A stretch of 64,000 nt of DNA. Origin: Leucobacter sp. PH1c (GTDB lineage Bacteria; Actinomycetota; Actinomycetes; Actinomycetales; Microbacteriaceae). The translations under genes and the position numbers were made by a program. Shown in pieces: positions 41,561 to 58,085 of this stretch. How positions within the stretch are numbered: position 1 is the first letter of the stretch; every line of letters begins with the position of its first letter. The DNA lies in the NCBI RefSeq assembly GCF_000633415.1, contig NZ_AYMV01000001.1:1-64000 (forward strand). The letters run 5' to 3'. Below the pieces are notes generated by a model. It searched no databases and was not told the origin of the DNA. It saw only the letters and a program-made list of their open reading frames with translations.

Positions 41561-41581
41561 CCATTCTGGAAAGGGGCGGTG

Positions 41582-43346: not shown

Positions 43347-43354
43347 GCTATAGC
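43347..43354. promoter_or_regulatory. GCTATAGC palindrome upstream of the GntR gene
   Basis: The palindrome GCTATAGC lies 85 bp before the GntR start in the 111-bp gap after the epimerase gene, within the AT-rich context TGCTATAGCGATGGGGTAAA. It is site 1 of four in this region and fits autoregulation by the GntR protein. Confidence 0.6.
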
Positions 43355-43439
43355 GATGGGGTAAACTGGGCGCTCGGGCTGCGCGTCCTGTGACCCGCCA
43401 CCCCTGGGATGGTCACCGTTGACCCACGATTGGACCTAC

Positions 43440-44111
43440 ATGTCGCTGAGCAATCTGAAGAGTTCGAGCATCTCGGACACGGTGACCACCGAGCTGCGCG
43501 AGGCGATCCTCGCCGGCGATTTCGAGCCGGGGGCCCGGCTCGTCGAGCGCCACCTGGCCGAGCAGCTGGGGGTGAGTCACATCCCCGTGCGCGAGGCCCT
43601 CGCCCGGCTCACGGAGGAAGGGCTCGTGGAGCGCGAGCCGCGTCGGGGCGCACGCGTCGCCGAGCTCGGCGAGACCGAGCTCGAGGAGGTCTCCAGCCTC
43701 CGTTCGGTGCTCGAGCGCTTCGTCGTCGAGCGGGTGCAGGCGCGCTGGCAGCCCGAGCACGAGGCCGAGCTCCGCGCCATCGTCGACCGCATGGCCGAGG
43801 CGGCCGCGGCGGGCGACGTCGATCTGCTCTTCACGCAGGACCGGCGCTTCCACGAGGCGCTCTGGACGCTCGCCGAGCACTCGGTCCTCGCCGACATCGC
43901 GTCGCAGCTCCGCGGGCGCATCAACAGCTTCCTGAAGGCCGCGAACTCCGCTCTCGCGCGCGACGAGCTCGAACGCCACGTGCAGGCGCACGAGGACCTC
44001 ATCGCGGCGATCGCGAGCGGCGATCTGGCTCGCGCACAGGACTCGATGACGCAGCACATCGAGGACGCCGTGACCCGCGTCTCGGCGACCGGCCGCGACG
44101 ACGCGAGCTAG
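43440..44111 (+). CDS. GntR family (FCD/FadR type) transcriptional regulator
   Basis: A 223-residue GntR regulator. The winged helix has EAILAGDFEPGARLVERHLAEQLGVSHIPVREALARL (about residues 21-57), and the C-terminal FCD domain has metal-type ligand residues in TQDRRFHEALWTLAEHS and ERHVQAHEDLIAAI. FCD domains commonly sense sugar acids, keto acids or related metabolites. It sits at the head of the sugar-acid cluster and the GCTATAGC palindromes recur at its own promoter and those of the importer and downstream enzymes, so it is the likely regulator. ATG 43440 is preceded by no strong Shine-Dalgarno. Confidence 0.88.
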   Translation: MSLSNLKSSSISDTVTTELREAILAGDFEPGARLVERHLAEQLGVSHIPVREALARLTEEGLVEREPRRGARVAELGETELEEVSSLRSVLERFVVERVQARWQPEHEAELRAIVDRMAEAAAAGDVDLLFTQDRRFHEALWTLAEHSVLADIASQLRGRINSFLKAANSALARDELERHVQAHEDLIAAIASGDLARAQDSMTQHIEDAVTRVSATGRDDAS

Positions 44112-44112
44112 C

Positions 44113-45045
44113 GTGCGCACCGAGTGGCCCACCGCGGCCGAGGCCGTCGCGGAGGACCTCCCGGGACCCGCCGGGCTGCGGCTCGCGGAGTCTCCGCGCG
44201 TCTCCGTGGACGGGCGCACGCTCTGGTTCGTCGACATCTCGGATCGGCGGCTCTGGCGCGCACCGATCGCGCGGCTGCATGATCGCGCCGCCTACGTGTC
44301 GCGCGAGCTCCCCGCCGAGCCTGGTTTCGTCGCGCCGGATCCCGCCGCCCCCGAGTCGCCGCTCGTCGGCTTCCCGGACGGGCTCTTCCGCGTCGACTGG
44401 GCGACCGGGGAGCGCGAGCTCGTGTGCGCCGTGCCCCCGGCCGAAGCCCCCGTGCGCATCAACGACGGCGCCGTCGCGCCCGACGGGTCCGTGTGGTTCG
44501 GCACGATGAACCTCGGCGCGGAGGACGCGCCGGCGGGCACCCTCTTCCGGGTCGCGGCGGGGGGTGGTGCCGCCAGTGCCGAGGCTGCCACCGGAGCCGG
44601 TGCCGAGGCCGTGGCGCAGGCCCTCGACGGTCCTGCCGCCTGCTGGAACGGGATCGGCTGGAGCCCCGACGGCGCGGTGGCGTACGCCACGGACACGCTC
44701 GGCGGCGAGATCCGCAGCTACACGGCTCAGGGGGAGCCCCTCGGGCGGATCCCGGTGCCCGGGGCGGGCGCCGAGGCCCTGCCCGACGGCCTGCTCGTCG
44801 ATCGCAGCGGCGCGCTGTGGAGCGCGATCTGGGGCGGGAGCGTCGTGCTGCGGCTCCGCCCGGAATCGGCGCACGCGGTGCGGTGCGTCGGGGCGATCCG
44901 GGTCGCGGGCGCCCGGCCGACGGCGCTCGCCGAACTGCCCGACGGCGGGCTCGTGATCACCCGGGCCGCCGACGCGGCGGGGAGCGGGGCGCTCGCGCAC
45001 GTTCCCGCGGCCGCCGTTGCCCGCCTGCGCGAAGCGGAGGAGTAG
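44113..45045 (+). CDS. SMP-30/gluconolactonase family lactonase
   Basis: A 310-residue six-bladed propeller lactonase. Metal ligands of the family are visible: Glu in LAESPRV (about residue 26), Asn in RINDGAV, Asn in CWNGIGWSPDG and Asp in LPDGLLVD. It hydrolyses sugar lactones, such as those formed by a dehydrogenase, to the sugar acid. GTG 44113 starts 1 bp after the GntR stop, so the two are cotranscribed. It is the second step of the proposed pathway. The specific sugar is not shown by the sequence. Confidence 0.88.
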   Translation: MRTEWPTAAEAVAEDLPGPAGLRLAESPRVSVDGRTLWFVDISDRRLWRAPIARLHDRAAYVSRELPAEPGFVAPDPAAPESPLVGFPDGLFRVDWATGERELVCAVPPAEAPVRINDGAVAPDGSVWFGTMNLGAEDAPAGTLFRVAAGGGAASAEAATGAGAEAVAQALDGPAACWNGIGWSPDGAVAYATDTLGGEIRSYTAQGEPLGRIPVPGAGAEALPDGLLVDRSGALWSAIWGGSVVLRLRPESAHAVRCVGAIRVAGARPTALAELPDGGLVITRAADAAGSGALAHVPAAAVARLREAEE

Positions 45046-45385
45046 CGGAAGGCTCGGGCAGCAGCAGCAGCAGCAGCAGCCGCAGCGGCCGGCAGCGGCC
45101 CGGAGCCTCGCGCGGCAGCGGTCCAGAGCCTCGCGCGGCAGCGGCGGGACGCTGCGCGCTCCGGATCCGCCCCCGAGGATCCGGTCGGGCCGGCCGACGC
45201 TCACCCCGCGCGATCCCCCCAGGCCCCGCGCGATCCCGCCAGGCCCCGCCTGATCCGGCCCGATCCCGCCGCGCGCGGGAAGATTTCACCCGCTGTTCCG
45301 GTCCGCGGATGGACACCGGAGGGCTTATGCTAGATACTATAGCGACGGCATGCAGTTGAGTGCCGGCCATCATCTTGGAGGAACA
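45046..45385. other. 340-bp repeat-rich non-coding region before the importer operon
   Basis: I see no gene here. It begins with about seven GCA triplets (45058-45079), then a 19-bp unit starting GAGCCTCGCGCGG twice, 23 bp apart (45103 and 45126), then repeated AGGCCCCGC-type blocks near 45217-45260. The last 80 bp turn AT-rich and hold an ACTATAGC site (45336-45343) and the ribosome site of the binding protein. Confidence 0.65.
45310..45343 (+). promoter_or_regulatory. Promoter region with ACTATAGC operator for the importer operon
   Basis: A TGGACA hexamer (45310-45315) and GCTAGATACTATAGC (45329-45343) lie about 45-75 bp before the binding-protein start. The same GCTAGAT-CTATAGC arrangement occurs at 56206-56220, with one base different. 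The exact -10 is uncertain. Confidence 0.55.
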
Positions 45386-46933
45386 ATGTTGTTGCGAAAG
45401 AAGCTTGCGACGGGCGCCCTGGCCCTCGCCACCCTGTTCACCCTGACCTCCTGTGCCGGCACTGGCGGCGGCACGCTCGGGTCGGGCTCAGGCGGGGACG
45501 CCCCCGCGGAGATCACCGTCGCGGCTGCGCAGGGGATCCCCCAGCTCAACCCCGCGATCCGCACCTTCGCGTGGGAGGAAGTGCTCTTCCCCCTGCTCTG
45601 GAACGGCCTCACGGAGACGAGCGAAAGCGGCGAGATCGAGGGCGATCTGGCCGAGAAGTGGACCGTCAGCGACGACCAGAAGACCTGGACCTTCTCGCTC
45701 CGCGACGGCGTCACGTTCTCCAACGGCAAGGCACTCACGGCCGACGACGTCGTCGCCTCGTTCGAGTACTACCTCGCGCCCGAGACCTCCACGCAGGAGA
45801 AGACGAAGATCGAGGCGATCACGAGCGTGACCGCCGTCGACGAGCGCACGGTCGAGTTCCAGCTCGACGCCCCCACCGCCACCTTCCCGGCCGGAATCGT
45901 GTGGGTCAAGGTGATGGACATGGACGCGCTCGACCAGATCGACAAGAACCCGATCGGCACCGGCCCGTACACCGTGAAGTCGTTCACCCCGGACAACTCC
46001 GTCACCCTCGTGCGCAACGACGACTACTTCGGCGATGCGCCCGCGCTCGAGACGATCACGATCGAGAAGGCCGCCGAGTCGACCGCCGCGGTCACCGGGC
46101 TGCGCTCGGGCGACATCGACGTGCTCTGGTCGGTGCCCCAGGGCGACGTCGCCCAGTTCGAGGGCGACTCGGCCGTCTCGCTCGTGCGCCCCGAGAACCC
46201 GAGCCAGTGGCCGAGCTGGGAGATGGACACCACCTCCGCCCCGTTCAACGACGTGCGCGCCCGCCAGGCGCTCGCCTACGCGATCGACCGCGACGCGATC
46301 CTCGAGGCCGCCTACGCGGAGCAGGGGCACCTCGCCCCGACAAACAACGCGCTCGGCGAGAACAACCCCTGGTACGGCGGCGACCTCACCGACTACAGCT
46401 ACGACCTCGACAAGGCCAAGGAGCTCTTCGCGGCCGCGGGCGTCACGGAGGGCACCACGCTCACCTGGTGGGGCGTCGCCGGGCAGTACCCCGAGTGGAA
46501 CACGAGCGCCGAGATCCTCCAGGCCAGCCTGAAGGAGATCGGGATCACGCTGAAGATCGAGAACAACGACATCGGCACCTGGGTCGAGAAGTTCTACCCC
46601 GCGGGGAAGAGCTACCCGGCGACGATCGTGCCGAACTTCCAGTCGACGCCGCCGGAGCCGGCGTACTCGCTGAACTTCTACCGCGAGGGCCGCTGCGAGT
46701 GCAACTGGGCGAACCCCGACTTCGAGAGCGCCTTCGACGCGGCCGTCGGCGAGCCCGACGAGGCGGCGCGCAAGACCAAGTGGGGTGAGGTGCAGACCAT
46801 CATCAACCGCGAGGTGCCGCTCATCGTTCCGATCCAGGCCACCGTGGTGACCGCGACCGACAGCGCGCTCGGCGGGGTCTGGGTCGAGGGCGGCGGCCAG
46901 CTCCACCTCGAGAACGCCAGCTTCAAGGGATAA
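45386..46933 (+). CDS. Peptide/opine-type ABC substrate-binding lipoprotein (family 5)
   Basis: A 515-residue solute-binding protein of the DppA/OppA family. The signal ends in a lipobox (FTLTSCAGTG). Typical motifs are EEVLFPLLWNGLTE, KWTVSDDQKTWTFSLRDGVTFSNGK and IDKNPIGTGPYTVKSF. TTGGAGGAAC precedes ATG 45386. Family members carry peptides, opines, or sugars and oligosaccharides. The sugar-acid enzymes downstream suggest a glycoside, sugar or modified sugar ligand. Expression is probably GntR-controlled via the site at 45336. Confidence 0.93.
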   Translation: MLLRKKLATGALALATLFTLTSCAGTGGGTLGSGSGGDAPAEITVAAAQGIPQLNPAIRTFAWEEVLFPLLWNGLTETSESGEIEGDLAEKWTVSDDQKTWTFSLRDGVTFSNGKALTADDVVASFEYYLAPETSTQEKTKIEAITSVTAVDERTVEFQLDAPTATFPAGIVWVKVMDMDALDQIDKNPIGTGPYTVKSFTPDNSVTLVRNDDYFGDAPALETITIEKAAESTAAVTGLRSGDIDVLWSVPQGDVAQFEGDSAVSLVRPENPSQWPSWEMDTTSAPFNDVRARQALAYAIDRDAILEAAYAEQGHLAPTNNALGENNPWYGGDLTDYSYDLDKAKELFAAAGVTEGTTLTWWGVAGQYPEWNTSAEILQASLKEIGITLKIENNDIGTWVEKFYPAGKSYPATIVPNFQSTPPEPAYSLNFYREGRCECNWANPDFESAFDAAVGEPDEAARKTKWGEVQTIINREVPLIVPIQATVVTATDSALGGVWVEGGGQLHLENASFKG

Positions 46934-46934
46934 C

Positions 46935-47897
46935 GTGACCAGATTCATCCTTCGGCGGGTGGCGATCAGCATCCTCATGCTGATCGCCACCTCGCTCCTC
47001 GTCTTCATCGTCCTCCGGCTCCTGCCGGGCGACCCGGTGATCACTCGTCTCGGCTCCACCCCCGGCGTCGACGCGGAGATGATCGAGCGGCTTCGCGCCG
47101 AAGCGGGGCTCGACGCCCCGATCTGGCAGCAGTACCTGAACTGGGTGGGCGGCATGTTCCGCGGCGACTTCGGCCAGTCGTACTTCAACCAGTTCTCCGT
47201 GAACGAGCTCATCGCGCAGCGCCTGCCCGCCACGCTCGAGCTCACGCTGATCGCGGTGCTGCTCGCGCTCGTGATCGCCGTCCCCACCGCGGTGTTCGCG
47301 TCGCTCAAGCCGCTCGGCTGGCTCGACCGGGTGCTCACCGCGATCTCCACCGCCGGCATGGCGCTCCCGCAGTTCCTCATCGGCATCGTGCTGATCGTGG
47401 TCTTCGCGGTGACGCTGCGCTGGCTCCCCGCCCGCGGTTACGTGCCCTTCTCGGAGGATCCCGCGCTCAATATCGTGGGCATGATCCTCCCGTCGATCAC
47501 GCTCGCGCTCGCCTCCGCGCCGCTCCTCATCCGCTTCCTGCGGGCCTCGATGATCGAGACGCTCGCCGCGCCGTTCATCCGCACGGCGCGCGGCAAGGGC
47601 GTCGACCGGGCCGGTGTGGTCGTGGGGCACGCCCTGCGCAACGCGTTGATCCCGGGCCTCACGATGCTCGGCCTGATCGTCGGGTACACGCTCGGCGGCG
47701 TCGTCATCATCGAGTACGTGTTCGGCATCCCCGGGCTCGGCTCGCTCGCGATCGACTCAGTGTTCAAGCGCGACTACGCCGTGCTGCAGTCCGTCGTGCT
47801 CCTCATCAGTGCGATGTTCATCCTGACGTCGCTGATCGTCGACCTGCTGTACGGGGTCCTGGACCCGCGTCTGCGAGTGGGGAAGAACCGTGGCTAA
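46935..47897 (+). CDS. Peptide/opine-type ABC permease, DppB-like
   Basis: A 320-residue permease with six membrane helices and the DppB-type N-terminus FILRRVAISILMLIATSLLVF. The EAA-like loop is RTARGKGVDRAGVVVGHALRNALIP. GTG 46935 starts 1 bp after the binding-protein stop. Its 3' end overlaps the second permease by 8 bp. Confidence 0.94.
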   Translation: MTRFILRRVAISILMLIATSLLVFIVLRLLPGDPVITRLGSTPGVDAEMIERLRAEAGLDAPIWQQYLNWVGGMFRGDFGQSYFNQFSVNELIAQRLPATLELTLIAVLLALVIAVPTAVFASLKPLGWLDRVLTAISTAGMALPQFLIGIVLIVVFAVTLRWLPARGYVPFSEDPALNIVGMILPSITLALASAPLLIRFLRASMIETLAAPFIRTARGKGVDRAGVVVGHALRNALIPGLTMLGLIVGYTLGGVVIIEYVFGIPGLGSLAIDSVFKRDYAVLQSVVLLISAMFILTSLIVDLLYGVLDPRLRVGKNRG

Positions 47898-48759
47898 TCT
47901 CACCACCCAGAAACTGCTCCTGCCCATCATGCGCCGCGGGGGCGCCCTCCGCCGCACGCCGTGGCAGACCTGGGTCGCCGTCGGCGTGCTCGGCGTCATT
48001 GCGATCGCCTGCATCGCCGCCCCGCTCGTGGCCCCCTACGACCCGACCGCGCAGTCCTCCGACCGCTTCGCCGGGATGAGCGCCGCCCACTGGTTCGGCA
48101 CCGACGAGCTCGGCCGCGACCTGCTGAGCCGCGTGCTCCACGGTGGACAGCTCACTCTCTTCATCGTGCTCGGCGCGACCGCCGTCGCGATGGTCATCGG
48201 CACGATCTGGGGTATGGCCGCCGCGTTCCTGCGCGGCTGGCTCGACGAGGTACTCATGCGCCTCGCCGACACGGTCATGGCGATCCCGCAGATGCTCTTC
48301 GCGCTCGTGTTCATCTCCGCGTTCGGGGCGACCCCCGTGAAGCTCGCGGTGATCATCGGCGTGCTCCTCACCCCGACGACGGCGCGCCTCGTGCGCTCCT
48401 CCGTGCTGGGCGAGATCCAGGCCGACTACTTCACGGCCGCCGTCTCGTACGGCGCCTCGAAGGGCCGCCTCCTCACCCGCGAGGTGCTCCCGAACGTCGC
48501 CGGCCCCATCACGGTGCAGGCCGCGATCAATGCGGCCAACGCGCTGCTGCTCGAGGCCTCGATGAGCTTCGTGGGGCTCGGGATCCAGCCGCCCGAGGCG
48601 ACCTGGGGCACGCTCGTGCAGCAGGGCTACCAGAAGATGTACCAGTCGACGGGCTACGTGCTGTTCCCGGCCATCTTCATCTTCATCACCATCTGGATGC
48701 TCAACCTGCTGGCCGACCAGCTGGGCGAGACCGCGCAATCGAAGGGACGGAAGCGATGA
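47890..48759 (+). CDS. Peptide/opine-type ABC permease, DppC-like
   Basis: A 289-residue permease of the DppC type. It has the N-terminal LVAPYDPTAQSS, HWFGTDELGRDLLSRVLHG and FVGLGIQPPEATWGTL motifs diagnostic of this subunit, with about six helices. GTG 47890 is the start. It pairs with the DppB-like permease and overlaps the ATPase gene by ATGA. Confidence 0.95.
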   Translation: MANLTTQKLLLPIMRRGGALRRTPWQTWVAVGVLGVIAIACIAAPLVAPYDPTAQSSDRFAGMSAAHWFGTDELGRDLLSRVLHGGQLTLFIVLGATAVAMVIGTIWGMAAAFLRGWLDEVLMRLADTVMAIPQMLFALVFISAFGATPVKLAVIIGVLLTPTTARLVRSSVLGEIQADYFTAAVSYGASKGRLLTREVLPNVAGPITVQAAINAANALLLEASMSFVGLGIQPPEATWGTLVQQGYQKMYQSTGYVLFPAIFIFITIWMLNLLADQLGETAQSKGRKR

Positions 48760-50486
48760 GCCGCGCAGCAGCCCCCGACGCACCCGTGCTGACCGTGACC
48801 GACCTCACCGTGGGCTACGGGGAGGCGCAGCCCGTGCAGGGCATCAGCTTCGAACTGCGCCGCGGCGCGAAGATCGGCATCGTGGGCGAGTCCGGATCCG
48901 GCAAGTCGCTCACGGCGCTGTCGATCATGCGCCTCACCGACGGCGCCACGCTCGGCGGCAGCATCCGCCTCGGCGAGACCGAGCTCACCGAGCTCAGCCA
49001 GCGCCAGATGGAGAAGCTGCGCGGCGGCCGCGTCGCGATGGTCTACCAGGACCCGATGAGCTCGCTGAACCCGGTCATGACGATCGGCGCGCAGCTCATC
49101 GAGGCGATCCGCCTCCACAGCGCCGTGAGCAAGCGCGCGGCGCACGCGCGCGGGGTCGAACTGCTTACCGAGGTCGGCGTGCCGCTCCCCGAGCAGCGCA
49201 TGAGCCAGTACCCGCACGAGTTCTCGGGCGGCATGCGCCAGCGGGTGATGATCGCGATGGCGATGTCCGGCAACCCCGAGGTGCTCATCGCCGACGAGCC
49301 GACGACCGCGCTCGACGTCACCACGCAGGCGCGCATCATCGACCTCCTCGACCGCCTCGCCGAGGAGCACGGCACGGCCGTGATCCTCATCACGCACGAC
49401 CTCGGCGTCGCCGCGGGCTTCTGCGAGGAGATCCACGTGATGCGGCACGGCCGCATCATCGAGTCCGCGCCCGCCCCCGAGCTGTACGCGAACCCGCAGC
49501 ACGACTACTCGCGCTCGCTGCTCGGCGCGGTCGTCGATCTCACCGTCGACGTGAACACGCCCATCCCCACGAGCGCCGACATCCTCGCCGCGGAGGGCGT
49601 GGCGCCGCGCCGGCTCGCCGCGCAGGCCGAGGTGGCCGGTCGTGGCGAGGTGCTCGTGAGCGTGCGCAAGCTGCAGAAGACGTTCCACCTGGGCGGCGGC
49701 CAGTCGGTCACGGCGATCAACGACGTCTCCTTCGACATCCGCCGCGGCGAGACCTTCGGCCTCGTGGGCGAGTCGGGCAGCGGGAAGTCGACCGTGTCGC
49801 GGGCCGTGCTGGCGCTCCAGGACGTCGACGCGGGCACCGTGACGATCGGGGGCCGCGACGTGCACGCGCTCCGCGGGAAGGAGCTGCGCAGCGCGCGGCG
49901 CGACATGCAGATGGTCTTCCAGGACCCCTTCTCGGCGCTCAACCGGCGCCAGACGGTCGCGCAGATCGTGGCGTCGCCGCTCGAGGCCCACGGCATCGGA
50001 TCCCCGCAGGAGCGCCGCGAGAAGGTCGCCGAGACGCTCGAGCTCGTGGGGCTCGGTCAGGGCTTCAACGACCGGCTGCCCGGCACGATGTCCGGCGGGC
50101 AGTGCCAGCGCGTGGCGATCGCGCGCTCGCTCGTGCTCGACCCCGAGTTCATGGTGCTCGACGAGTCGGTCTCGGCGCTCGACGTGTCGATCCAGGCGCA
50201 GGTGCTCAACCTGCTCCGGGATCTGCAGGCTCGCCTCGGCCTCACGTACCTGTTCATCAGCCATGATCTGGCGGTGATCCGCTACATGTCGAGCACGGTG
50301 GCGGTGATGCGCCGCGGCACGATCGTCGAGCAGGCGAGCCGCGACGAGCTGTTCGCGAACCCGCAGCACGCCTACACGCGCTCGCTCATGGCGGCGATCC
50401 CCGTCGCCGATCCGACGATCGAGCGCGAGCGCCGCAGGGAGGCTGCGCGACTCGCGGCCGAGCTCCAGGCGGAGGCGGCGGCGTGA
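48756..50486 (+). CDS. Peptide/opine-type ABC ATPase, fused double nucleotide-binding protein
   Basis: A 576-residue protein with two ATPase domains (DppD- and DppF-like) in one chain. Both have Walker A GESGSGKS, at about residues 43 and 343. The signatures are FSGGMRQRVMIAMAM and MSGGQCQRVAIARSL, and the Walker B motifs are VLIADEPTTALDV and FMVLDESVSALDV. Many bacteria encode these as separate genes; here they are fused. The stop overlaps the next GTG (GTGA). Confidence 0.95.
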   Translation: MSRAAAPDAPVLTVTDLTVGYGEAQPVQGISFELRRGAKIGIVGESGSGKSLTALSIMRLTDGATLGGSIRLGETELTELSQRQMEKLRGGRVAMVYQDPMSSLNPVMTIGAQLIEAIRLHSAVSKRAAHARGVELLTEVGVPLPEQRMSQYPHEFSGGMRQRVMIAMAMSGNPEVLIADEPTTALDVTTQARIIDLLDRLAEEHGTAVILITHDLGVAAGFCEEIHVMRHGRIIESAPAPELYANPQHDYSRSLLGAVVDLTVDVNTPIPTSADILAAEGVAPRRLAAQAEVAGRGEVLVSVRKLQKTFHLGGGQSVTAINDVSFDIRRGETFGLVGESGSGKSTVSRAVLALQDVDAGTVTIGGRDVHALRGKELRSARRDMQMVFQDPFSALNRRQTVAQIVASPLEAHGIGSPQERREKVAETLELVGLGQGFNDRLPGTMSGGQCQRVAIARSLVLDPEFMVLDESVSALDVSIQAQVLNLLRDLQARLGLTYLFISHDLAVIRYMSSTVAVMRRGTIVEQASRDELFANPQHAYTRSLMAAIPVADPTIERERRREAARLAAELQAEAAA

Positions 50487-51934
50487 GCGCCGAGGTGGGC
50501 GCTGGCGTGAGCGCCGAGGTGAGCGCCGGGGTGCAGCCCGGGTCGACGCGGCTGGGGGATCGCCTGCGCGTGCCCCGCACGAGCGCGAGCCTCGGCATCG
50601 CGACGCGCGACATCACCCCGCCCGTGGGGATCCGTGCGAAGAACTGGGGCCCGGCCGATTGGGAGCGCGCCGAGGGCGCGCACCGCGAGATGACGCTGAC
50701 GGCGCTCGCGATCGTCGCGCGTGACGGCGCCACCGCGCCGCGCGTGCTCATCACCGCCGATGGCACCTGGTGGCGTCGCGTGGCCGACGAGTGGGGCGTG
50801 CGCGGCCGGGTGCTGGCCGAGCTCGGGCTTCCCGCCGACGCGCTGACGCTCTCGCTCTCGCACACCCACGCCGGGCCCGTGCTGTGCGCGGCCGACGCGC
50901 ACCTCGACGGCGGCGAGCTGATCCCCGGCTACCTCGACGCGCTCGCCGATGCCGCGATCGCGGCCGCGCGCGAGGCGATCGCGAACGCCGCACCCGGCCG
51001 GATCGAGTGGGCGACGGGACGCTGCGGGCTCGCCGCGAACCGCGAGCTCGACGTCGACGGCCGCGCCCTCGTCGGGTACAACCCCGAGGAGACCGCGGAC
51101 GACACCGTGCTCGTGGGCCGGATCACCGCGGAGGACGGGGACGTGCTCGGCACGATCGTCAACTACGCCTGCCACCCCACGACGCTGTCGTGGCAGAACC
51201 GGCTCGTCTCGCCCGACTACGTGGGCGGCATGCGCGCCCTCGTCGCGGAGGCGACGGGCGCCCCCGTGCTCTTCCTGCAGGGGGCCTCGGGCGAGCTCGC
51301 GCCCCGTGAGCAGTACACGGGCGACCTCGACGTGGCCGACCGGCACGGGCGCTCGCTGGGGCATGCCGTGCTCGCCGCGCTCGACTCGCTGCCCGTTCCC
51401 GGCGCGGAGCTCGCACTCGGCGGCATCGTCGAATCGGGCGCCCCGCTCGCCGTGTGGGCGCCCGCGCCCGCGACGGGCGGCGCGGAGATCGCCGGCGTGA
51501 CGGCCTCGGCCGAGCTTGAGCTCGTCGATCTCCCGAGCCTCGACGAGCTCGCCGCGAGCTGGGCCGACATCGACCCCCGCAGCCGCGAGGAACGGCTCGG
51601 CCGGGCACGCAACCTTCGCGACGGCTACATCGACGGCCCCACCGTGCAGCACCCCGTGTGGGCCTGGCGGCTCGGCGATGCCGTGCTCGTCGCGCACCCC
51701 GGCGAGGCCTACTCGCGCCTGCAGACCACGCTCCGCGCCCGCTTCCCGGGCACCCCGATCCTCGTCGCGAACCTCACGAACGGACCCGGCTTCGTGTACC
51801 TGCCCACGCAGGACGCGTACGATCGCGGGGCGTACCAGGCCTGGCAGACGCCGCTCCGCGCGGGATCCCTCGACCGGCTCGAGGAGCACGCCGCAGCGCT
51901 CGTGGCCGAGCTGCTCGACCGGCCAGCGGGCTAG
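50483..51934 (+). CDS. Neutral/alkaline ceramidase N-terminal-like hydrolase
   Basis: A 483-residue protein of the neutral/alkaline non-lysosomal ceramidase N-terminal family. Zinc-type residues are in LSLSHTHAGPVL (about residue 133) and VNYACHPTTLSW (about residue 232). It lacks a signal peptide, so it is probably cytoplasmic. The family hydrolyses N-acyl amides in eukaryotic ceramidases, but many bacterial members, coded in sugar and amino-sugar operons, have unknown substrates. It is coupled by GTGA to the ATPase gene, so it acts on something imported. Deacylation of an N-acyl or sugar-linked substrate is a proposal, not proven. Confidence 0.75.
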   Translation: MSAEVGAGVSAEVSAGVQPGSTRLGDRLRVPRTSASLGIATRDITPPVGIRAKNWGPADWERAEGAHREMTLTALAIVARDGATAPRVLITADGTWWRRVADEWGVRGRVLAELGLPADALTLSLSHTHAGPVLCAADAHLDGGELIPGYLDALADAAIAAAREAIANAAPGRIEWATGRCGLAANRELDVDGRALVGYNPEETADDTVLVGRITAEDGDVLGTIVNYACHPTTLSWQNRLVSPDYVGGMRALVAEATGAPVLFLQGASGELAPREQYTGDLDVADRHGRSLGHAVLAALDSLPVPGAELALGGIVESGAPLAVWAPAPATGGAEIAGVTASAELELVDLPSLDELAASWADIDPRSREERLGRARNLRDGYIDGPTVQHPVWAWRLGDAVLVAHPGEAYSRLQTTLRARFPGTPILVANLTNGPGFVYLPTQDAYDRGAYQAWQTPLRAGSLDRLEEHAAALVAELLDRPAG

Positions 51935-51965
51935 CCGCCGCGCGCTTCTCGCACCACGGGTTCTC

Positions 51966-52013
51966 GCATCACCGCACCACCGCACCACCGCATCACCGCA
52001 TCACCGCACCACC
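51966..52013 (+). repeat. 8-bp tandem repeat upstream of the first SDR gene
   Basis: Six copies of GCAYCACC (Y = T or C) run without interruption 17 bp before the SDR start. This is a second non-coding octamer array in the window, besides the one at 12025. Confidence 0.85.
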
Positions 52014-52029
52014 ACCTCGAAAGGGCATC

Positions 52030-52872
52030 ATGACGCAGCCGTCCGCTTCTCCCGCACCCCACACCGCCCCGGCGGGCCGCGCGCCCGTGGCGATCGTCAC
52101 CGGCGGCTCCGGCGGGATCGGCTGGGAGATCGGCCGCCGCCTCGTCGCCGACGGCTACACGGTGATCGCCTGCGACATGGTGCCCGGGCTCACCGCCGAG
52201 CCGCTGCCCGCGGAGGACGCCGCCGCAGGGACCCCGGCCGCGGGCCGCCCCACGCTCTGGCGCGAGCTGAACGTCACCGACCACGCCGCCGTCGCGCGCG
52301 TTTTCGGCGATATCGCGGCCGAGTTCGGCGGGATCGACGTGCTCGTGAACAACGCGGGGATCCAGCGCCATCGCGGCATCGAGGATCTCAGCTGGGGCGA
52401 GTGGGAGGCCGTGGTCAACGTCAACCTGCACGGCGTCTTCAACGCGCTCCAGGCCGCGGGACGGCAGATGCTCGGGCAGGAGGCGGGCGGCCGGATCGTC
52501 AACATCTCCTCGGTGTCGGCACGCGGCTCGGCGGGCCGGGCCCCCTACTCGACCACGAAGGCCGCGGTGATCGGACTCACCTCCACGGCGGGAGCCGAGT
52601 GGGCCGCGCGCGGCGTGCGCGTCAACGCGGTCGCCCCGGGCTACGTCGACACGGGCGTGTTCCGGCAGGGCGTCGAGGCGGGCACGCTCAGCCTCGACAC
52701 GATCCTCAGCCGCATCCCCGCGAAGCGCCTCGCTCAGGCGAGCGAGATCGCGAACGCGGTCAGCTTCCTCGTCTCCGACCAGGCCTCCTATATGAACGGC
52801 CAGACCCTCTACGTCGACGGCGGATTCATGATCGACTACGGGGTGCCGCTCGCGAAGAAGCCGACGCCGTGA
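52030..52872 (+). CDS. SDR family dehydrogenase
   Basis: A 280-residue classical short-chain dehydrogenase. It has the cofactor motif VTGGSGGIGWEI (about residues 24-35), NNAGI, the catalytic Ser in NISSVSARG and Tyr-Lys in YSTTKAA, and the C-terminal YVDGGFMIDYG. A 25-residue insert after VPGL is unusual. It is coupled to the enolase-superfamily gene (GTGA). Candidate roles are oxidation of a sugar to its lactone or of a 2-keto-3-deoxy acid to a 2,4-diketo acid. GAAAGGGC precedes ATG 52030. Confidence 0.9.
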   Translation: MTQPSASPAPHTAPAGRAPVAIVTGGSGGIGWEIGRRLVADGYTVIACDMVPGLTAEPLPAEDAAAGTPAAGRPTLWRELNVTDHAAVARVFGDIAAEFGGIDVLVNNAGIQRHRGIEDLSWGEWEAVVNVNLHGVFNALQAAGRQMLGQEAGGRIVNISSVSARGSAGRAPYSTTKAAVIGLTSTAGAEWAARGVRVNAVAPGYVDTGVFRQGVEAGTLSLDTILSRIPAKRLAQASEIANAVSFLVSDQASYMNGQTLYVDGGFMIDYGVPLAKKPTP

Positions 52873-53969
52873 GCGAGACGCCTGCACGCCGCGTGACCGC
52901 GGTGCGCACGGCCAACGCCGTGCTGCCGCTGCCTGCCCCGCTGCACCTCGGTGCGATGACGGTCACCCGGCGCGAGTACGCGGGCGTGCGGCTCGAAACG
53001 GCCGATGGCCTCGTCGGCTCGGCGTACTGCCTGAGCCGCGAGGCGCCCATGACCGAGATCGTCGACCGCCTCGTCGCGCCGCACGCGCTCGGCTCCGACA
53101 GCTCGGAGCCCGAAGCGGTGTGGGAGCGCATGCTCCGCGGATCGGCCATCGTCGGGCGGGTGGGCCTCGTGCGCCGCGCGATCGGGCTCGTCGACATCGC
53201 GCTCTGGGACGTCGCGGCGCAGCGCGCCGGCCGCCCCGTGCGCGAGCTGCTCGGCGCCGACGCGCGCCCGCGGGAGACCATGCTCGTCGCCGCCTACCCG
53301 ACCCCCGAGCGGCCCGTCGCCGAGGTGGTCGCCGAGGTCGTGGAGCAGGCCGCCGAGGGCTGGCCGCTCGTCAAGATCTCGCGGGCGGCCGATCCCGCCT
53401 ACATGGGTGAGCTGATCCGCGCGCTGAACCGCGCGCTGCCCGCCACCTGCGGGCTCGTCGTCGACGTCGGCTTCGGCTGGCGCGACGCCGACGCGGCCCT
53501 CGCCGAGATCCGCGCCTGGGGCGACATCGAGCTCGCCTGGCTCGAGGACCCGCTGCTGCCCGAGGACGTCGCGGGCTGCGCGCGCATCCGCCGGGAGACG
53601 GGGCTCACCGTGTCGGTCGGCGACGAGGTGACCGATCCGGCCGTGCTCCGCGCGCTCGTCACGGGCGGCGCCGTCGACGTGCTCAGGATCGACGTCGTCG
53701 CCGTGGGCGGGCTCACCCCCGCGCGCGAGCTGCGCGACTGGTGCGCCGAGCGCGGCGTGCCCGTCTCCTGCCACGTGTACCCGGAGATCAGCGTGCACCT
53801 GGGCGCGGGCGTCGAGACCTTCAACCGGCGCCCCGAGGGGAACCCCTACGACCCCTCGCCGCTGCTCACGACGGGCGGCCCGACGTTCGCGGGCGGCCGC
53901 GCCACGCCGCCGTCGGCCCCCGGGCTCGGCTTTGCCCTCCGCCCCGAGCACTTCGCCTTCGGGGCGTAG
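52869..53969 (+). CDS. Enolase superfamily acid-sugar dehydratase (mandelate racemase subgroup)
   Basis: A 366-residue enolase-superfamily protein with an N-terminal capping domain and a barrel carrying the catalytic set: Lys in LVKISR (about residue 167), metal ligands in VVDVGFGW, WLEDPLL and SVGDEVTD, and the His-Asp dyad from SCHVYPEIS and LRIDVV. This is the mandelate racemase subgroup, whose sugar-acid dehydratases remove water to give a 2-keto-3-deoxy acid. GTG 52869 overlaps the SDR stop. Sugar specificity is not decided by the visible residues. Confidence 0.88.
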   Translation: MSETPARRVTAVRTANAVLPLPAPLHLGAMTVTRREYAGVRLETADGLVGSAYCLSREAPMTEIVDRLVAPHALGSDSSEPEAVWERMLRGSAIVGRVGLVRRAIGLVDIALWDVAAQRAGRPVRELLGADARPRETMLVAAYPTPERPVAEVVAEVVEQAAEGWPLVKISRAADPAYMGELIRALNRALPATCGLVVDVGFGWRDADAALAEIRAWGDIELAWLEDPLLPEDVAGCARIRRETGLTVSVGDEVTDPAVLRALVTGGAVDVLRIDVVAVGGLTPARELRDWCAERGVPVSCHVYPEISVHLGAGVETFNRRPEGNPYDPSPLLTTGGPTFAGGRATPPSAPGLGFALRPEHFAFGA

Positions 53970-54068
53970 GCTCGGCGGCACGCGCCCCGATCCCTCACCC
54001 CGATTCCGCAGTTCTGCCCCACCCGCCACCCCTCCACCCAGTCACCAGCCACCCTTGAGGAGCCCCCG

Positions 54069-54887
54069 ATGACCCCCACCACTCCGGCGCGCAGCGCCGT
54101 CGTCACCGGCAGCGGCAAGGGCATCGGCCGGGCGGTCGCCGAGCGGCTCACCGCCGACGGCTGGCTCGTCGTCGGCCTCGAGCGGAGCCCCGGATCCGGC
54201 ACCCTCGAAGCGGGGATCTGCGCCGCAGTGGTGCTCGGCGACTCCCGGGAACGCTCCGCGCACGCCGAGGCTGCGGCCCGCGCCCGTGAGCTCGCGCCGC
54301 TCGGCGGCTGGGTGAACAACGCGGGGATCACGAAGACGACGCCCCTGCACCGCCTCGACGAGGCCACGGTGCGCGAGGTGATCGACATCAACGGCCTCGG
54401 CACCCTCTGGGGCGCGACGGCCGCCGTCGAGGCCTTCACGGCGCAGCGCTCGGGCGGCTCGATCGTCAACATCGGCTCGGTCCACGGGCGGGCGGCGTTC
54501 GCGGATCACGCCGCCTACGAGTTCACGAAGGCCGGGATCGACGCGCTGAGCCGCAGCATCGCCGTCACCTACGGGCCGCTCGGCATCCGGGCGAACACGG
54601 TCGCCCCGGGCGGCGTGCGCACCCCGCACCTCGAGGCGCAGATCGCGCGCGCGGCCGATCCCGAGGCGGAGGAGCGCGGGCTCGCCGAGGGGCCGCCGAT
54701 GCGCCGGATCGCGCGCGCGGAGGAGGTCGCGGCGGTGACCGCGTTCCTGCTCGGCGACGAGGCGCCGTACATCAGCGGCCAGTCGATCGCGGTCGATGGG
54801 GCGTGGACGGCGTCGTTCGGGCGCCCGCAGGTCGATCCCGCGCTGCTCGAGGCCTACGGACTGGTGCGGGAGCGCCGCGACGCGTGA
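54069..54887 (+). CDS. SDR family dehydrogenase
   Basis: A 272-residue short-chain dehydrogenase with VTGSGKGIGRAV (about residues 12-23), NNAGI, the catalytic Ser in NIGSVHGRA and Tyr-Lys in YEFTKAG, and C-terminal SGQSIAVDGAW. TTGAGGAG lies 7 nt before ATG 54069, 99 bp after the dehydratase stop. It is likely a sugar or 2-keto-3-deoxy-acid dehydrogenase of the pathway. It converges on the NTF2-like gene across a strong terminator hairpin. Confidence 0.9.
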   Translation: MTPTTPARSAVVTGSGKGIGRAVAERLTADGWLVVGLERSPGSGTLEAGICAAVVLGDSRERSAHAEAAARARELAPLGGWVNNAGITKTTPLHRLDEATVREVIDINGLGTLWGATAAVEAFTAQRSGGSIVNIGSVHGRAAFADHAAYEFTKAGIDALSRSIAVTYGPLGIRANTVAPGGVRTPHLEAQIARAADPEAEERGLAEGPPMRRIARAEEVAAVTAFLLGDEAPYISGQSIAVDGAWTASFGRPQVDPALLEAYGLVRERRDA

Positions 54888-54932
54888 GCGCCCGGCAGCG
54901 CAGCGCCCGGCAGCGCAGTGCCCGGCAGCGCC
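54888..54932 (+). repeat. 15-bp tandem repeat (3 copies), non-coding
   Basis: Three copies of a unit like GCGCCCGGCAGCGCA directly follow the SDR stop and lead into the terminator hairpin. Confidence 0.8.
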
Positions 54933-54964
54933 GTGCCCCCGGTGTCCGCGGACGCCGGGGGCAC
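54933..54964. terminator. Strong bidirectional terminator hairpin
   Basis: A long inverted repeat with outer arms GTGCCCCCGG / CCGGGGGCAC and an inner palindrome GTCCGCGGAC. It lies between the convergent SDR (54887) and NTF2-like (54978) genes. Confidence 0.7.
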
Positions 54965-54977
54965 TGCGCTTCGCGCC

Positions 54978-55319
54978 CTACGCCTTCAGCATCGAGGCGC
55001 GCGCGATGAGCCCGTCGACGACGTCGAACGTGGCGATCGTCTCGGTCGCGACGCCCGCGTTGATGACGCGCTCCTGCGCGACGACCCAGCGCTCGCCGAA
55101 CAGCACGGTCGTGTCGATCTCGCAGCGGAGCTCGGGGTTCTCGAGCCGCGGCGCGTAGAAGGCGCGGATGGCCTCGCGGCCGACGATCGGCTCGGGGCCG
55201 ACGCCGGTGATCACGGCGTCCTTCGCGTAGGTGCCGACGAAGGTGTCGAGGTCGTGGTCGTTGAACGCGTCGACCTGGGCGGTCACCGTGGCGAGCGCGG
55301 TCTGGCTGGGGACGGGCAT
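54978..55319 (-). CDS. NTF2-like / SnoaL-type small protein
   Basis: A 113-residue nuclear transport factor 2-like protein with the typical start AQVDAFNDHDLDTFVGTYAKDAVI and the end FDVVDGLIARASMLKA. The fold serves as isomerase, cyclase or dehydratase in many contexts. GAAGGAG is 7 nt before ATG 55319. It follows an SDR on the minus strand, whose promoter holds site 3 of the GCTATAGC palindromes, and is probably cotranscribed with it. An isomerase role in the sugar-acid pathway is a guess. Confidence 0.83.
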   Translation of the reverse strand: MPVPSQTALATVTAQVDAFNDHDLDTFVGTYAKDAVITGVGPEPIVGREAIRAFYAPRLENPELRCEIDTTVLFGERWVVAQERVINAGVATETIATFDVVDGLIARASMLKA

Positions 55320-55384
55320 GGCATGCTCCTTCGCAGTCGGGGAAAGTGGGGGAGGCGGGGGCGGGATCGGGCCCCGCGCCGCAA

Positions 55385-56152
55385 CTAGTCGATCCGGACG
55401 CCGCCGTTGACGTCGTAGGTGGCCCCCGTGGTGAAGGCCGCCTTGGGGGAGGCGAGCGCCGCGATGATCCAGGCGACGTCCTCGGGCTGGCCGAAGTCGC
55501 CGAGCGGGATCGACGCCGTGAGCGCGTCGCGCGCGGGGCCCTGGAGGTGGTTCGTGATCGCGGAGACCACGGGGCCGGGGGTGACGGCGTTGACGCGGAT
55601 CCCCTCGCCAGCGAGGTGGCGGGCGAAGGAGCGCGTGAGGGCGAGGATCGCGCCCTTGCTCGCGGCGTAGTGCATGCCGGTCTTGAGCGCGCCCTGCTGG
55701 CCGGCGATGGACGAGAGGTTCACGACCGCGCGGTCGACGGGCGCCTCGGGGGTGCCCGCGGCGGCGCGCAGCAGGGGGAGTGCGGCGCGCGTGAGCAGGA
55801 AGGTGCCGCGCCCGTTCGTCTCCATGACGGCGTCCCACTCGTCGATCGTGATGTCGTCGAAGGCGCGGTAGGGGCACACGCCGCCGTTGTTCACGAGCAC
55901 GTGGAGCCGGCCCCACGTGGCCTCCACCTCCGCGACGAGGGCGTCGATCGAGGCGGGATCGCGCAGGTCGAGGCGGGAGACGCGGGCCTCGGGGGCGCCC
56001 GCGGCGATGCAGGCGTCCGCGGCTTCGCGGGCGGCGGCCTCGCCGCCCGTGTACGTGAGCCAGACGGCGTTCCCGTCGGCGGCGAGTGCGAGCGCGGCGG
56101 CGGTGCCGATGCCCGAGCTCGCCCCGGTGATGAGTGCGTATCGGAGAGTCAT
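55385..56152 (-). CDS. SDR family dehydrogenase
   Basis: A 255-residue short-chain dehydrogenase: ITGASSGIGTAAAL near the N-terminus, NNGGVCPYRAF (an unusual NNGG in place of NNAG), the catalytic Ser in NLSSIAGQQ, Tyr-Lys in YAASKGA, and the C-terminal TYDVNGGVRID. ATG 56152 has no Shine-Dalgarno, and the GCTATAGC site ends 9 nt upstream, so the message may be leaderless. It is divergent from the D-2-hydroxyacid dehydrogenase gene over 77 bp that hold two palindromes. Confidence 0.87.
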   Translation of the reverse strand: MTLRYALITGASSGIGTAAALALAADGNAVWLTYTGGEAAAREAADACIAAGAPEARVSRLDLRDPASIDALVAEVEATWGRLHVLVNNGGVCPYRAFDDITIDEWDAVMETNGRGTFLLTRAALPLLRAAAGTPEAPVDRAVVNLSSIAGQQGALKTGMHYAASKGAILALTRSFARHLAGEGIRVNAVTPGPVVSAITNHLQGPARDALTASIPLGDFGQPEDVAWIIAALASPKAAFTTGATYDVNGGVRID

Positions 56153-56159
56153 ACTCAGA

Positions 56160-56222
56160 ACGCTATAGCATTTTCGGGCCCGGCGCACCGGAGTGGCGCG
56201 TGTTTGCTAGATGCTATAGCAT
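56160..56222. promoter_or_regulatory. Divergent promoter region with two GCTATAGC palindromes
   Basis: Two palindromes, GCTATAGC at 56162-56169 and ATGCTATAGCAT at 56211-56222 (core 56213-56220), lie 51 bp apart. Each core ends 9 nt before the nearest start codon: 56152 on the minus strand and 56230 on the plus strand. This mirror layout suggests one regulator controls both genes at promoters giving very short or no leaders. Confidence 0.7.
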
Positions 56223-56229
56223 TCGATGC

Positions 56230-57222
56230 ATGAACTCTGATCTCGTACTCCTCACGGACAGCGATCTCCCCGGCACCGCCGCCCGGGACACGCTGGCCGC
56301 GGCCGGCCTCCGCGTCGAGGCCGCCCAGACCCGCGATCCCGCGCAGCTCATCGCCGCCGGGCGCGACGCGACGGCGCTCGTCGTGCAGTGGGCCCCCATC
56401 ACCGCCGAGGTGATGGACGGCATGCCGCGGCTGCGCCTCATCAGCCGGCTCGGGATCGGCGTCGACATGGTGGATCTCGCCGCGGCGACGGAGCGCGGCA
56501 TCGCCGTCGCGAACACCCCCACCTACTGCGTCGAGGAGGTGGCCACGCACACGATCGCCATGGTGCTCGCGCAGGCCCGCGGTCTCGCCGGCTACGACGC
56601 CGCCGTCCGCGCCGGGCGCTGGGCCGCGGTCGACGCGCAGCCCATGTCGATCCGCCCCTCCGCGAGCACCGTCGCCGTGATCGGCTACGGCCGCATCGGC
56701 CGCATGGTCGCCGCCTCGCTCACCGCGATCGGCTTCCGCGTGCTCGTCTCGGATCCGTTCCTCGACGCCGCCGCAGCGACCGCGGCGGGCGTCGTCCCCG
56801 CCACGCTCGACGAGGCGCTCGCGGGCGCCGACATCGTGACGCTCCACGCGCCGCTCACCGAGGAGACCCGCCACCTCCTCAACGCGCGCAGCATCGCGGG
56901 CATGCGCCCCGGCGCGGTCGTGGTGAACACGTGCCGCGGCCCCCTCATCGACGAGGAGGCGCTCGCCGACGCGATCGAGTCCGGTCACCTCGGCGGAGCC
57001 GCGCTCGACGTGTTCGCCGCCGAGCCGCTCCCCGCGGACAGCCGCCTGCGCGCGAGCGACCGCGTGCTGCTCACCCCTCACGCCGCCTGGTACTCGCCGG
57101 AGGCGCTCGCCGACCTCCCGGTGCACGCTGCGCGCAACGTCGTCGACTTCGTCGCGGGCCGCCCGGTGCCCGCGATTCTCAACCCGGAGGCGCTGACGCG
57201 CCGCGAGGAGGTAGGTGCCTGA
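56230..57222 (+). CDS. D-2-hydroxyacid dehydrogenase
   Basis: A 330-residue D-isomer-specific 2-hydroxyacid dehydrogenase. The cofactor motif is VAVIGYGRIGRMVA (about residues 155-168). The catalytic Arg is in VVNTCRGPLID, Glu in the EAL region and His in LLTPHAAWYSPE. Family members reduce glyoxylate, hydroxypyruvate or related keto acids with NAD(P)H. ATG 56230 has no Shine-Dalgarno; the palindrome core ends 9 nt before it. The stop overlaps the next ATG (TGATG), so it is coupled to the FAH-family gene. Confidence 0.9.
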   Translation: MNSDLVLLTDSDLPGTAARDTLAAAGLRVEAAQTRDPAQLIAAGRDATALVVQWAPITAEVMDGMPRLRLISRLGIGVDMVDLAAATERGIAVANTPTYCVEEVATHTIAMVLAQARGLAGYDAAVRAGRWAAVDAQPMSIRPSASTVAVIGYGRIGRMVAASLTAIGFRVLVSDPFLDAAAATAAGVVPATLDEALAGADIVTLHAPLTEETRHLLNARSIAGMRPGAVVVNTCRGPLIDEEALADAIESGHLGGAALDVFAAEPLPADSRLRASDRVLLTPHAAWYSPEALADLPVHAARNVVDFVAGRPVPAILNPEALTRREEVGA

Positions 57223-58085
57223 TGGAACTCATGCGACTCGGCCAGCCCGGCCAGGAGCGCCCCGTCGTCCGCGACGGCGAGCGCGTCTACGAGCTGAGCT
57301 CCCTGACCGCCGATATCGACGGCGCCTTCCTCGCCGCGGACGGCATCGCGCGGGTCCGCGCCGCCCTCGCCGAGGGCGCGCTGCCCGAGCTCGCCGACTG
57401 GCGCTCGTTCCGCGTGGGCGCCCCGATCGCGCGGCCCTCCGCGGTGATCTGCATCGGCATGAACTACGCGGCACACGCCGCCGAGTCCGGGTCGCTGCCG
57501 CCCGAGCAGCCCGTCGTCTTCCTGAAGACCCCGAACACCGTCGTCGGTCCGTTCGACGACGTGTTCCTGCCGCCCACCGCCCAGACGGTCGACTGGGAGG
57601 TCGAGCTCGCCGTCGTGATCGGGCAGCGCGCACGCTACCTCGCGAGCCCCGCCGAGGCGCGCGCCCACATCGCCGGCTTCACGATCTCGAACGACGTCTC
57701 CGAGCGCGACTTCCAGCTCGAGCAGTCGGGCGGCCAGTGGTCGAAGGGCAAGTGCTCGGAGACGTTCAACCCGCTCGGCCCGGCGCTCGTGCCCACCGCG
57801 GAGGTGGACTACCAGAACCTCCGCCTCGGCTCGCGCGTGAACGGCGAGACTCGGCAGGACTCCACGACCGCCGACATGATCTTCCCGGTCGACGGGCTCG
57901 TGTACCACCTGAGCCAGTACCTCGTGCTTGAGCCGGGCGACGTGATCAACACGGGCACCCCGAAGGGCGTCGCGCTCTCCGGGAACTTCCCCTACCTCGG
58001 GGACGGCGACGAGATGACGATGTGGATCGAGGGGCTCGGCGAGCAGACGCAGCGCCTGCGCCCCGCGGTGCTGCCCGCCGCCTGA
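57222..58085 (+). CDS. Fumarylacetoacetate hydrolase-family 2,4-diketo acid hydrolase
   Basis: A 287-residue FAH-family protein. Conserved parts are ICIGMNYAAHAAESG, DWEVELAVVIGQRARYL (metal ligands Glu), FTISNDVSERDFQLE, and PGDVINTGTPKGV. The length and sequence fit 2,4-diketo-3-deoxy sugar acid hydrolases of the fucose and rhamnose diketo-hydrolase pathways, which cut to pyruvate plus a hydroxy acid. GAGGAGGT is placed well before ATG 57222. As the last enzyme of the cluster it marks a non-phosphorylative route. The same family includes ureidoglycolate lyase-like members, so the exact substrate is inferred from context. Confidence 0.88.
   Translation: MELMRLGQPGQERPVVRDGERVYELSSLTADIDGAFLAADGIARVRAALAEGALPELADWRSFRVGAPIARPSAVICIGMNYAAHAAESGSLPPEQPVVFLKTPNTVVGPFDDVFLPPTAQTVDWEVELAVVIGQRARYLASPAEARAHIAGFTISNDVSERDFQLEQSGGQWSKGKCSETFNPLGPALVPTAEVDYQNLRLGSRVNGETRQDSTTADMIFPVDGLVYHLSQYLVLEPGDVINTGTPKGVALSGNFPYLGDGDEMTMWIEGLGEQTQRLRPAVLPAA

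Follow-up and report, generated by a model that had tools for sequence, protein, structure and literature searches.

The window analysed here, the first 64,000 nucleotides (64 kb) of contig NZ_AYMV01000001.1 of Leucobacter sp. PH1c, contains a cluster of transport and catabolic genes that begins with the gene of a GntR-family regulator carrying an FCD domain (gntR; Table 1). Behind it lie genes for a lactonase, an ABC importer of the peptide/nickel type, three SDR proteins, a candidate sugar-acid dehydratase, a D-2-hydroxyacid dehydrogenase and a hydrolase of the FAH fold, and a short palindrome, GCTATAGC, recurs ahead of several of them. An earlier sequence-only reading of the window had proposed that the GntR protein controls both this cluster and itself through the palindrome. 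In the analysis presented here TGCTATAGCA, a longer form with GCTATAGC as its core, emerges as very probably the operator of the GntR/FCD protein (43440-44111), which would act as a repressor released by a ligand.

A pattern scan of the window returned exact copies of GCTATAGC at 43347, 56162 and 56213 and no others, just as had been reported, and the earlier estimate of fewer than one chance copy agrees with shuffled sequence, in which 0.16 copies are expected and three or more were reached in none of 100 shuffles. The fourth site, described as a copy with one change, is present as ACTATAGC at 45336-45343, and all four sites are intergenic and upstream of genes, in keeping with the promoter positions claimed for them. 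As a bare 8-mer the 45336 site is unremarkable, because copies with at most one mismatch to GCTATAGC are at chance level in the window (6 places vs 7.09 expected, with 68 of 100 shuffles reaching 6), and the one-mismatch scan was dropped as evidence. The case for this site therefore rests on a longer form. The extension said to be common to 45329-45343 and 56206-56220 proved to be an exact 16-bp match, TGCTAGATNCTATAGC, at 45328 and 56205, with no other place in the window at up to three mismatches (0.09 expected; two copies reached in 2 of 100 shuffles). The stretch between the lactonase gene and this site (45055-45290) is G+C-rich and consists in part of CAG runs and repeated GCGCGATCCC-like units.

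Table 1. Genes, putative operators and predicted promoter boxes of the cluster (window positions)
Feature	Position	Strand	Remarks
GntR/FCD regulator, 223 amino acids	43440..44111	+	PF00392 and PF07729 above cut-off
SMP-30/gluconolactonase-like lactonase	44113..45045	+	PF08450
ABC importer solute-binding protein, peptide/nickel type	45386..46933	+	PF00496
Two ABC permeases and double ATPase	46935..50486	+	named by eye from sequence; orthologs 96-99% in L. chromiireducens
Ceramidase-like protein, weak match	50483..51934	+	PF04734 below cut-off; PDB 2zws, E 1.5e-4
SDR 1	52030..52872	+	
Enolase-superfamily (MR/MLE) sugar-acid dehydratase candidate	52872..53969	+	PF13378 and PF02746
SDR 2	54069..54887	+	PF13561
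SnoaL-like protein, downstream of SDR 3	54978..55319	-	PF12680
SDR 3	55385..56152	-	PF13561
D-2-hydroxyacid dehydrogenase, divergent from SDR 3	56230..57222	+	PF02826 and PF00389
FAH-fold hydrolase	57222..58085	+	PF01557
Putative operator 1, core GCTATAGC	43347..43354	no strand	ends 85 nt before the regulator gene; kept in L. chromiireducens
TAAACT box after operator 1	43362		
Putative operator 2, TGCTAGATACTATAGC	45328..45343	+	before the importer/catabolic operon; kept in L. chromiireducens
Predicted promoter TGGACA-17-GATACT	45310-45338		overlapped by operator 2
Putative operator 3, core GCTATAGC	56162..56169	no strand	ends 9 nt before the ATG of the minus-strand SDR 3 gene
Putative operator 4, TGCTAGATGCTATAGC	56205..56220	+	ends 9 nt before the hydroxyacid dehydrogenase ATG
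Predicted -10 box TAGCGT of the SDR 3 gene	56160..56165	-	within operator 3 and flank; position inferred
Predicted -10 box TAGCAT of the dehydrogenase gene	56217..56222	+	within operator 4 and flank; position inferred

In the whole 3.12-Mb genome GCTATAGC occurs at seven places, which comprise the three sites in the window, two tRNA genes (tRNA-His and tRNA-Ile), one 5S rRNA gene and the promoter of an MFS transporter gene. About eight are expected when the window shuffles are scaled up (the reversed pattern occurs at 63 places), and the bare count, being close to the shuffle prediction, was dropped as genome-wide evidence; what is informative is where the copies lie and how they are conserved, not their number. 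Every copy in this genome outside the structural RNA genes is upstream of the regulator gene, of catabolic genes or of the MFS gene. The last of these is on another contig, with the palindrome ending 37 nt before the gene, and the same site is found in Leucobacter chromiireducens ahead of a protein that is identical in sequence by eye. The MFS protein passes Pfam MFS_1, and its nearest NCBIfam models, both below cut-off, are the D-galactonate transporter (TIGR00893, 278.9 bits against a cut-off of 395) and the 4-hydroxyphenylacetate permease HpaX.

Searches of the genome with longer patterns lead to the same gene. GCTAGATNCTATAGC has exact matches only at the 45328 and 56205 sites, and allowing two mismatches adds two places, one of them the MFS promoter. 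The scan that had been proposed with ATGCTATAGCAT, run at up to two mismatches, gives five places, three of them sites of the proposed regulon (56160, 56211 and the MFS promoter) and two of them two-mismatch places (C7:226716 and C17:12949); the 43347 and 45336 sites, which diverge more, are missed. The expectation that matches would be confined to the cluster failed, in that the MFS gene has a site and the bare 8-mer lies also in tRNA and 5S genes. As the MFS gene stands on a separate contig and its site is kept in L. chromiireducens, the regulon probably extends beyond the cluster by at least one gene. Within the long operon, the gaps at 51900-52060 and 53960-54070 hold no further operator at up to two mismatches to TGCTATAGCA.

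Orthologs of the regulator, 52-98% identical, were found in 10 other actinobacterial genomes, namely L. chromiireducens (G007), G080 (with two copies), G181, G511, G643, G657, G684, G697, G1034 and Actinomadura roseirufa. They are rare, occurring (own genome counted each time) in 3 of 398 genomes of the family, 6 of 396 of the order and 4 of 394 of the class, and among the 396 order genomes the MR/MLE enzyme occurs in exactly those 6. When the orthologous clusters were compared, as the sequence-only reading had advised, an exact GCTATAGC was present at the regulator gene, at the gene set or at both in all 10 genomes. The gene finder, trained on genes of the window, made few or no calls in the G080 stretches and some in G181, and positions there are from tblastn. 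The SDR 3 and dehydrogenase genes are divergent with two sites between them in 7 of the 10; in G080 they are apart and each has a site of its own, and the reduced sets of G1034 and Actinomadura have two sites directly before gntR. Strict helical phasing of operators 3 and 4 was considered and rejected, as their spacings in eight genomes (51, 51, 53, 51, 49, 69, 63 and 64) keep no constant phase. Three further features of the relatives may be recorded: a tandem pair of regulator genes in G080 (L067:9651-11365), 52% and 57% identical to that of the window; genes beside the regulator for large proteins of 683 and 727 amino acids with no Pfam match (L070:6328-8379 and L071:7546-9729); and a TGCTATAGCA upstream of the first of these large genes.

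These comparisons bear on two alternatives. The copies could be a chance cluster, and both the near-expected count of the 8-mer in the genome and the chance level of one-mismatch copies in the window are compatible with that; the recurrence of the sites at corresponding promoters of 10 other genomes refutes it, and we give it practically no credence. Alternatively, a regulator encoded elsewhere could read the sites, the GntR protein being merely one of its targets. A TetR-like gene does lie nearby at 41579-42340, its relatives having been sought in the cluster stretches only, in which the TetR-like protein was matched in L046 alone. Among the 17 proteins compared, the GntR protein is the sole regulator for which every one of the 10 genomes has a relative, and the paired sites directly before gntR in the reduced sets of G1034 and Actinomadura also point to it, which makes this alternative improbable. 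Control of the cluster and of itself by the GntR protein, as first proposed, thus gains support from sites at matching promoters in all 10 ortholog genomes; the part of that proposal in need of revision is its extent, since the regulon is probably wider and the operator appears to exceed 8 bp.

The greater length is seen when all copies in the 11 genomes are tallied. GCTATAGC occurs there at 80 places, of which 42 belong to the cluster stretches or the MFS gene, while tRNA genes account for 9, a 5S gene for 1 and other locations for 28. In this tally a place was assigned to the regulon if it lay in a cluster stretch, at an MFS site or in L100 (a contig end of G657 with a gene resembling that at L069:1584), a rule that takes in some neighbours by position only, among them genes for a Gfo/Idh oxidoreductase, a GNAT protein and a protein without a Pfam match. 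None of the 42 lacks a matching T or A neighbour: 26 have it on both sides, giving the full TGCTATAGCA, and 16 on one. Among the remaining 38, neither neighbour matches in 32, one in 3 and both in 3. The full 10-mer is therefore assigned to the regulon in 26 of 29 cases. Across the genus the two-sided form is present in both genomes that have the regulator and in 1 of 52 others. No GCTATAGC was found at 40 other GntR-like gene loci (28 from the genus and 12 further ones; 277,475 bases), a weak result, with only about 0.7 copies expected.

Often the 10-mer is accompanied by an added half-site, TGCTA, and the whole operator would then take the form TGCTAnnTGCTATAGCA. In an alignment of 39 sites (seven from G657 were dropped as near copies of those of G697; two ACTATAGC sites and one serine-lyase site, at L098, were kept) this second TGCTA precedes the one in the core by seven bases, its midpoint being about 9.5 nt away from the centre of the operator. 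It is perfect in 16 of the sites and matched in at least four of five letters in 20. Random flank positions gave on average 0.10 perfect matches and 0.59 at the looser level, with maxima of 2 and 4 in 2000 draws. In the genome of Leucobacter sp. PH1c the half-site is present at 45336 and 56213, has one change at the MFS site and is absent at 43347 and 56162. The core reads TGCT..AGCA across the alignment, with ACT for GCT in two sites.

Nine genomes give 18 cases of an SDR 3 or dehydrogenase gene with a site, and in all 18 the core stops 8-10 nt short of the ATG; the gntR of G1034 brings the count to 19 of 19. A box TAGC(A/G/T)T, which fits TANNNT, is found in all 19 promoters and would fall at -10 if transcription starts at the A of the ATG; since TAGC necessarily comes with the core, only the final T tests the box freely, and it is kept in 19 of 19. 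On the SDR side 8 of 9 genomes read TAGCGT, a flank that breaks the perfect palindrome and retains the T; this would be expected of a stretch used by regulator and polymerase alike. Actinobacterial leaderless genes with TANNNT boxes have been published (e.g. in the available text of PMC3898074). The arrangement suggests leaderless promoters that would be blocked by a repressor; with its operator on the -10 box of apparently leaderless promoters, the protein should for that reason repress.

Two further explanations have to be weighed against this architecture. The TANNNT overlap at a fixed distance from the ATG, seen in all 19 promoters looked at, would also fit a palindrome that is a mere promoter element, a symmetric-looking -10 box that no regulator reads. 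That is very unlikely, as the palindrome is equally constant in the half that the -10 box does not cover, the further half-site is conserved, distances of 85 nt at gntR and 37 nt at the MFS gene depart from the fixed one, and the 10-mer is absent from 51 of 52 genus genomes lacking the regulator. The GntR protein might, on the other hand, bind the sites mainly as an activator. Some FadR-subfamily proteins can activate, and the gntR and MFS sites are not over a leaderless start. We think such a role hardly probable, as the site covers the -10 box at the divergent pair and overlaps the predicted -10 at 45336, where bound protein would exclude the polymerase.

The preferred reading, a GntR/FCD repressor acting at these operators, fits the protein itself. 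With 75.3 bits for PF00392 (cut-off 27) and 86.4 bits for PF07729 (cut-off 24.3) it is assigned to the FadR/FCD subfamily of the GntR family. All 12 ortholog sequences have the recognition helix SHIP(V/I)REAL and, in the FCD domain, the same invariant Asp and three invariant His; such Asp and His residues of FCD proteins bind metal or form the ligand site. Of 20 helix-like stretches listed from the 40 other GntR-like loci, 15 have SR.P and none has SHIP. None of the named GntR models of NCBIfam (PhnR, CsiR, NanR, LldR, UxuR, ExuR and others) was passed among the 25 of 28 listed, the best of those listed being TIGR03338 with 119 bits against a cut-off of 271.5. Plasmid records contain no close copy: 2313 match the regulator, all below 60% identity and the best among the matches listed at 38.6%.

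In the mechanism that we propose, a ligand-free FCD dimer would occupy the operators and shut out RNA polymerase at its own promoter, at that of the importer/catabolic operon, at the divergent SDR 3 and dehydrogenase promoters and at the distant MFS promoter. An intermediate of a sugar-acid-type pathway, bound at the conserved Asp and His residues, would release the protein and so allow joint expression of the importer, MFS and catabolic genes, while the GntR protein would also control its own gene.

The gene set is likeliest to serve non-phosphorylative sugar-acid breakdown, because a lactonase, a dehydratase, SDRs and a hydrolase occur together. Non-phosphorylative pathways of the L-rhamnose or L-fucose type end in a diketo-deoxy acid hydrolase, and the cluster has in common with them SDRs, an SMP-30 lactonase, an MR/MLE dehydratase and an FAH-fold hydrolase, the second-best PDB match of the hydrolase being L-2,4-diketo-3-deoxyrhamnonate hydrolase (8gsr). 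It differs from them in that the best PDB match of the hydrolase is 1gtt, a 4-hydroxyphenylacetate-pathway enzyme, and in that both key enzymes fall below the cut-off of 500 bits of their best NCBIfam models, at 237.4 bits for the hydrolase (rhamnonate-pathway hydrolase NF053535) and 125 bits for the MR/MLE enzyme (L-talarate/galactarate dehydratase NF047820). Beyond these pathways the cluster adds ceramidase-like, SnoaL-like and hydroxyacid-dehydrogenase genes. An aromatic-acid pathway stays conceivable as an alternative reading of the set. The ceramidase-like protein, whose match to neutral ceramidase is sub-threshold, regularly accompanies the dehydratase in several relatives.

Several observations weigh against a dedicated operator of this repressor. 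The bare 8-mer lacks genome-wide enrichment, and the sites in related genomes share descent and are not independent events. Three full copies of TGCTATAGCA lie outside the set. One is in G1034 where no gene is called, and two are in the sister genomes G657 (L101:3001) and G697 (L098:3001), each 43 nt before an L-serine ammonia-lyase gene away from the cluster; the G657 lyase passes TIGR00720 and the G697 protein starts with the same letters, and these genes may possibly be an extension of the regulon there. G046 has a full TGCTATAGCA (C61:2466) and no close regulator in the ortholog search, its assembly being about 80% complete, and the gntR of G684 has only a one-mismatch copy, TGCTATGGCA. 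A sigma-70 pattern scan of 56050-56300 finds no promoter, which counts mildly, as its rule demands a good -35 box. Finally, the core TGCT..AGCA departs from the FadR-subfamily consensus TKGT/ACMA, which, in the available part of PMC4494728 (Suvorova et al. 2015), is given with named exceptions.

The conserved helix SHIP(V/I)REAL may account for the off-consensus core. More speculatively, and with somewhat greater doubt than belief, FCD regulators with this helix might form a separate specificity class that reads TGCT..AGCA, with the third half-site letting an extra subunit or dimer bind and one 18-bp element fusing operator and leaderless -10 box. For an FCD regulator that falls below the cut-off of every named model listed, the analysis supplies a putative operator and a gene set; it also ties an off-consensus operator to a conserved recognition helix, a link that a few point mutants can test. 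The proposed regulon also groups ceramidase-like, SnoaL-like and galactonate-type transporter proteins around one pathway, a lead to their function. As to precedence, the literature search gave no report pairing GCTATAGC with a GntR protein (an earlier prediction may exist in RegPrecise or in the supplements of PMC4494728), nothing on a GntR operator in Leucobacter and, among the matches listed for TGCTATAGCA, none concerning bacterial regulators.

In kind the proposed regulon is an ordinary local one of the FCD type, made a variant by a core that lies outside the consensus and appears to be fused with leaderless -10 boxes. Neither the added half-site nor the double sites at divergent genes are new in kind, because the available text of PMC4494728 describes for GntR proteins both double sites in divergent regions and added half-sites 7-12 nt from the centre, the latter frequent and not obligatory. 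With the FadR-subfamily local regulators of 2-nt core spacing treated there (GntR, HypR, UxuR and PrpR) the present system shares a GntR helix-turn-helix with an FCD domain and palindromic sites at local acid-catabolism genes, two of them in a divergent region and some with added half-sites; it differs from them in its core, TGCT..AGCA in place of TKGT..ACMA, and in its helix, SHIP(V/I)REAL. The off-consensus members of the subfamily named in the same text, BioR (TTATMKATAA) and NanR (direct repeats), resemble it in having operators outside the GT/AC rule, whereas the sequence is different and the operator proposed here would be a 10-bp palindrome with an added direct half-site.

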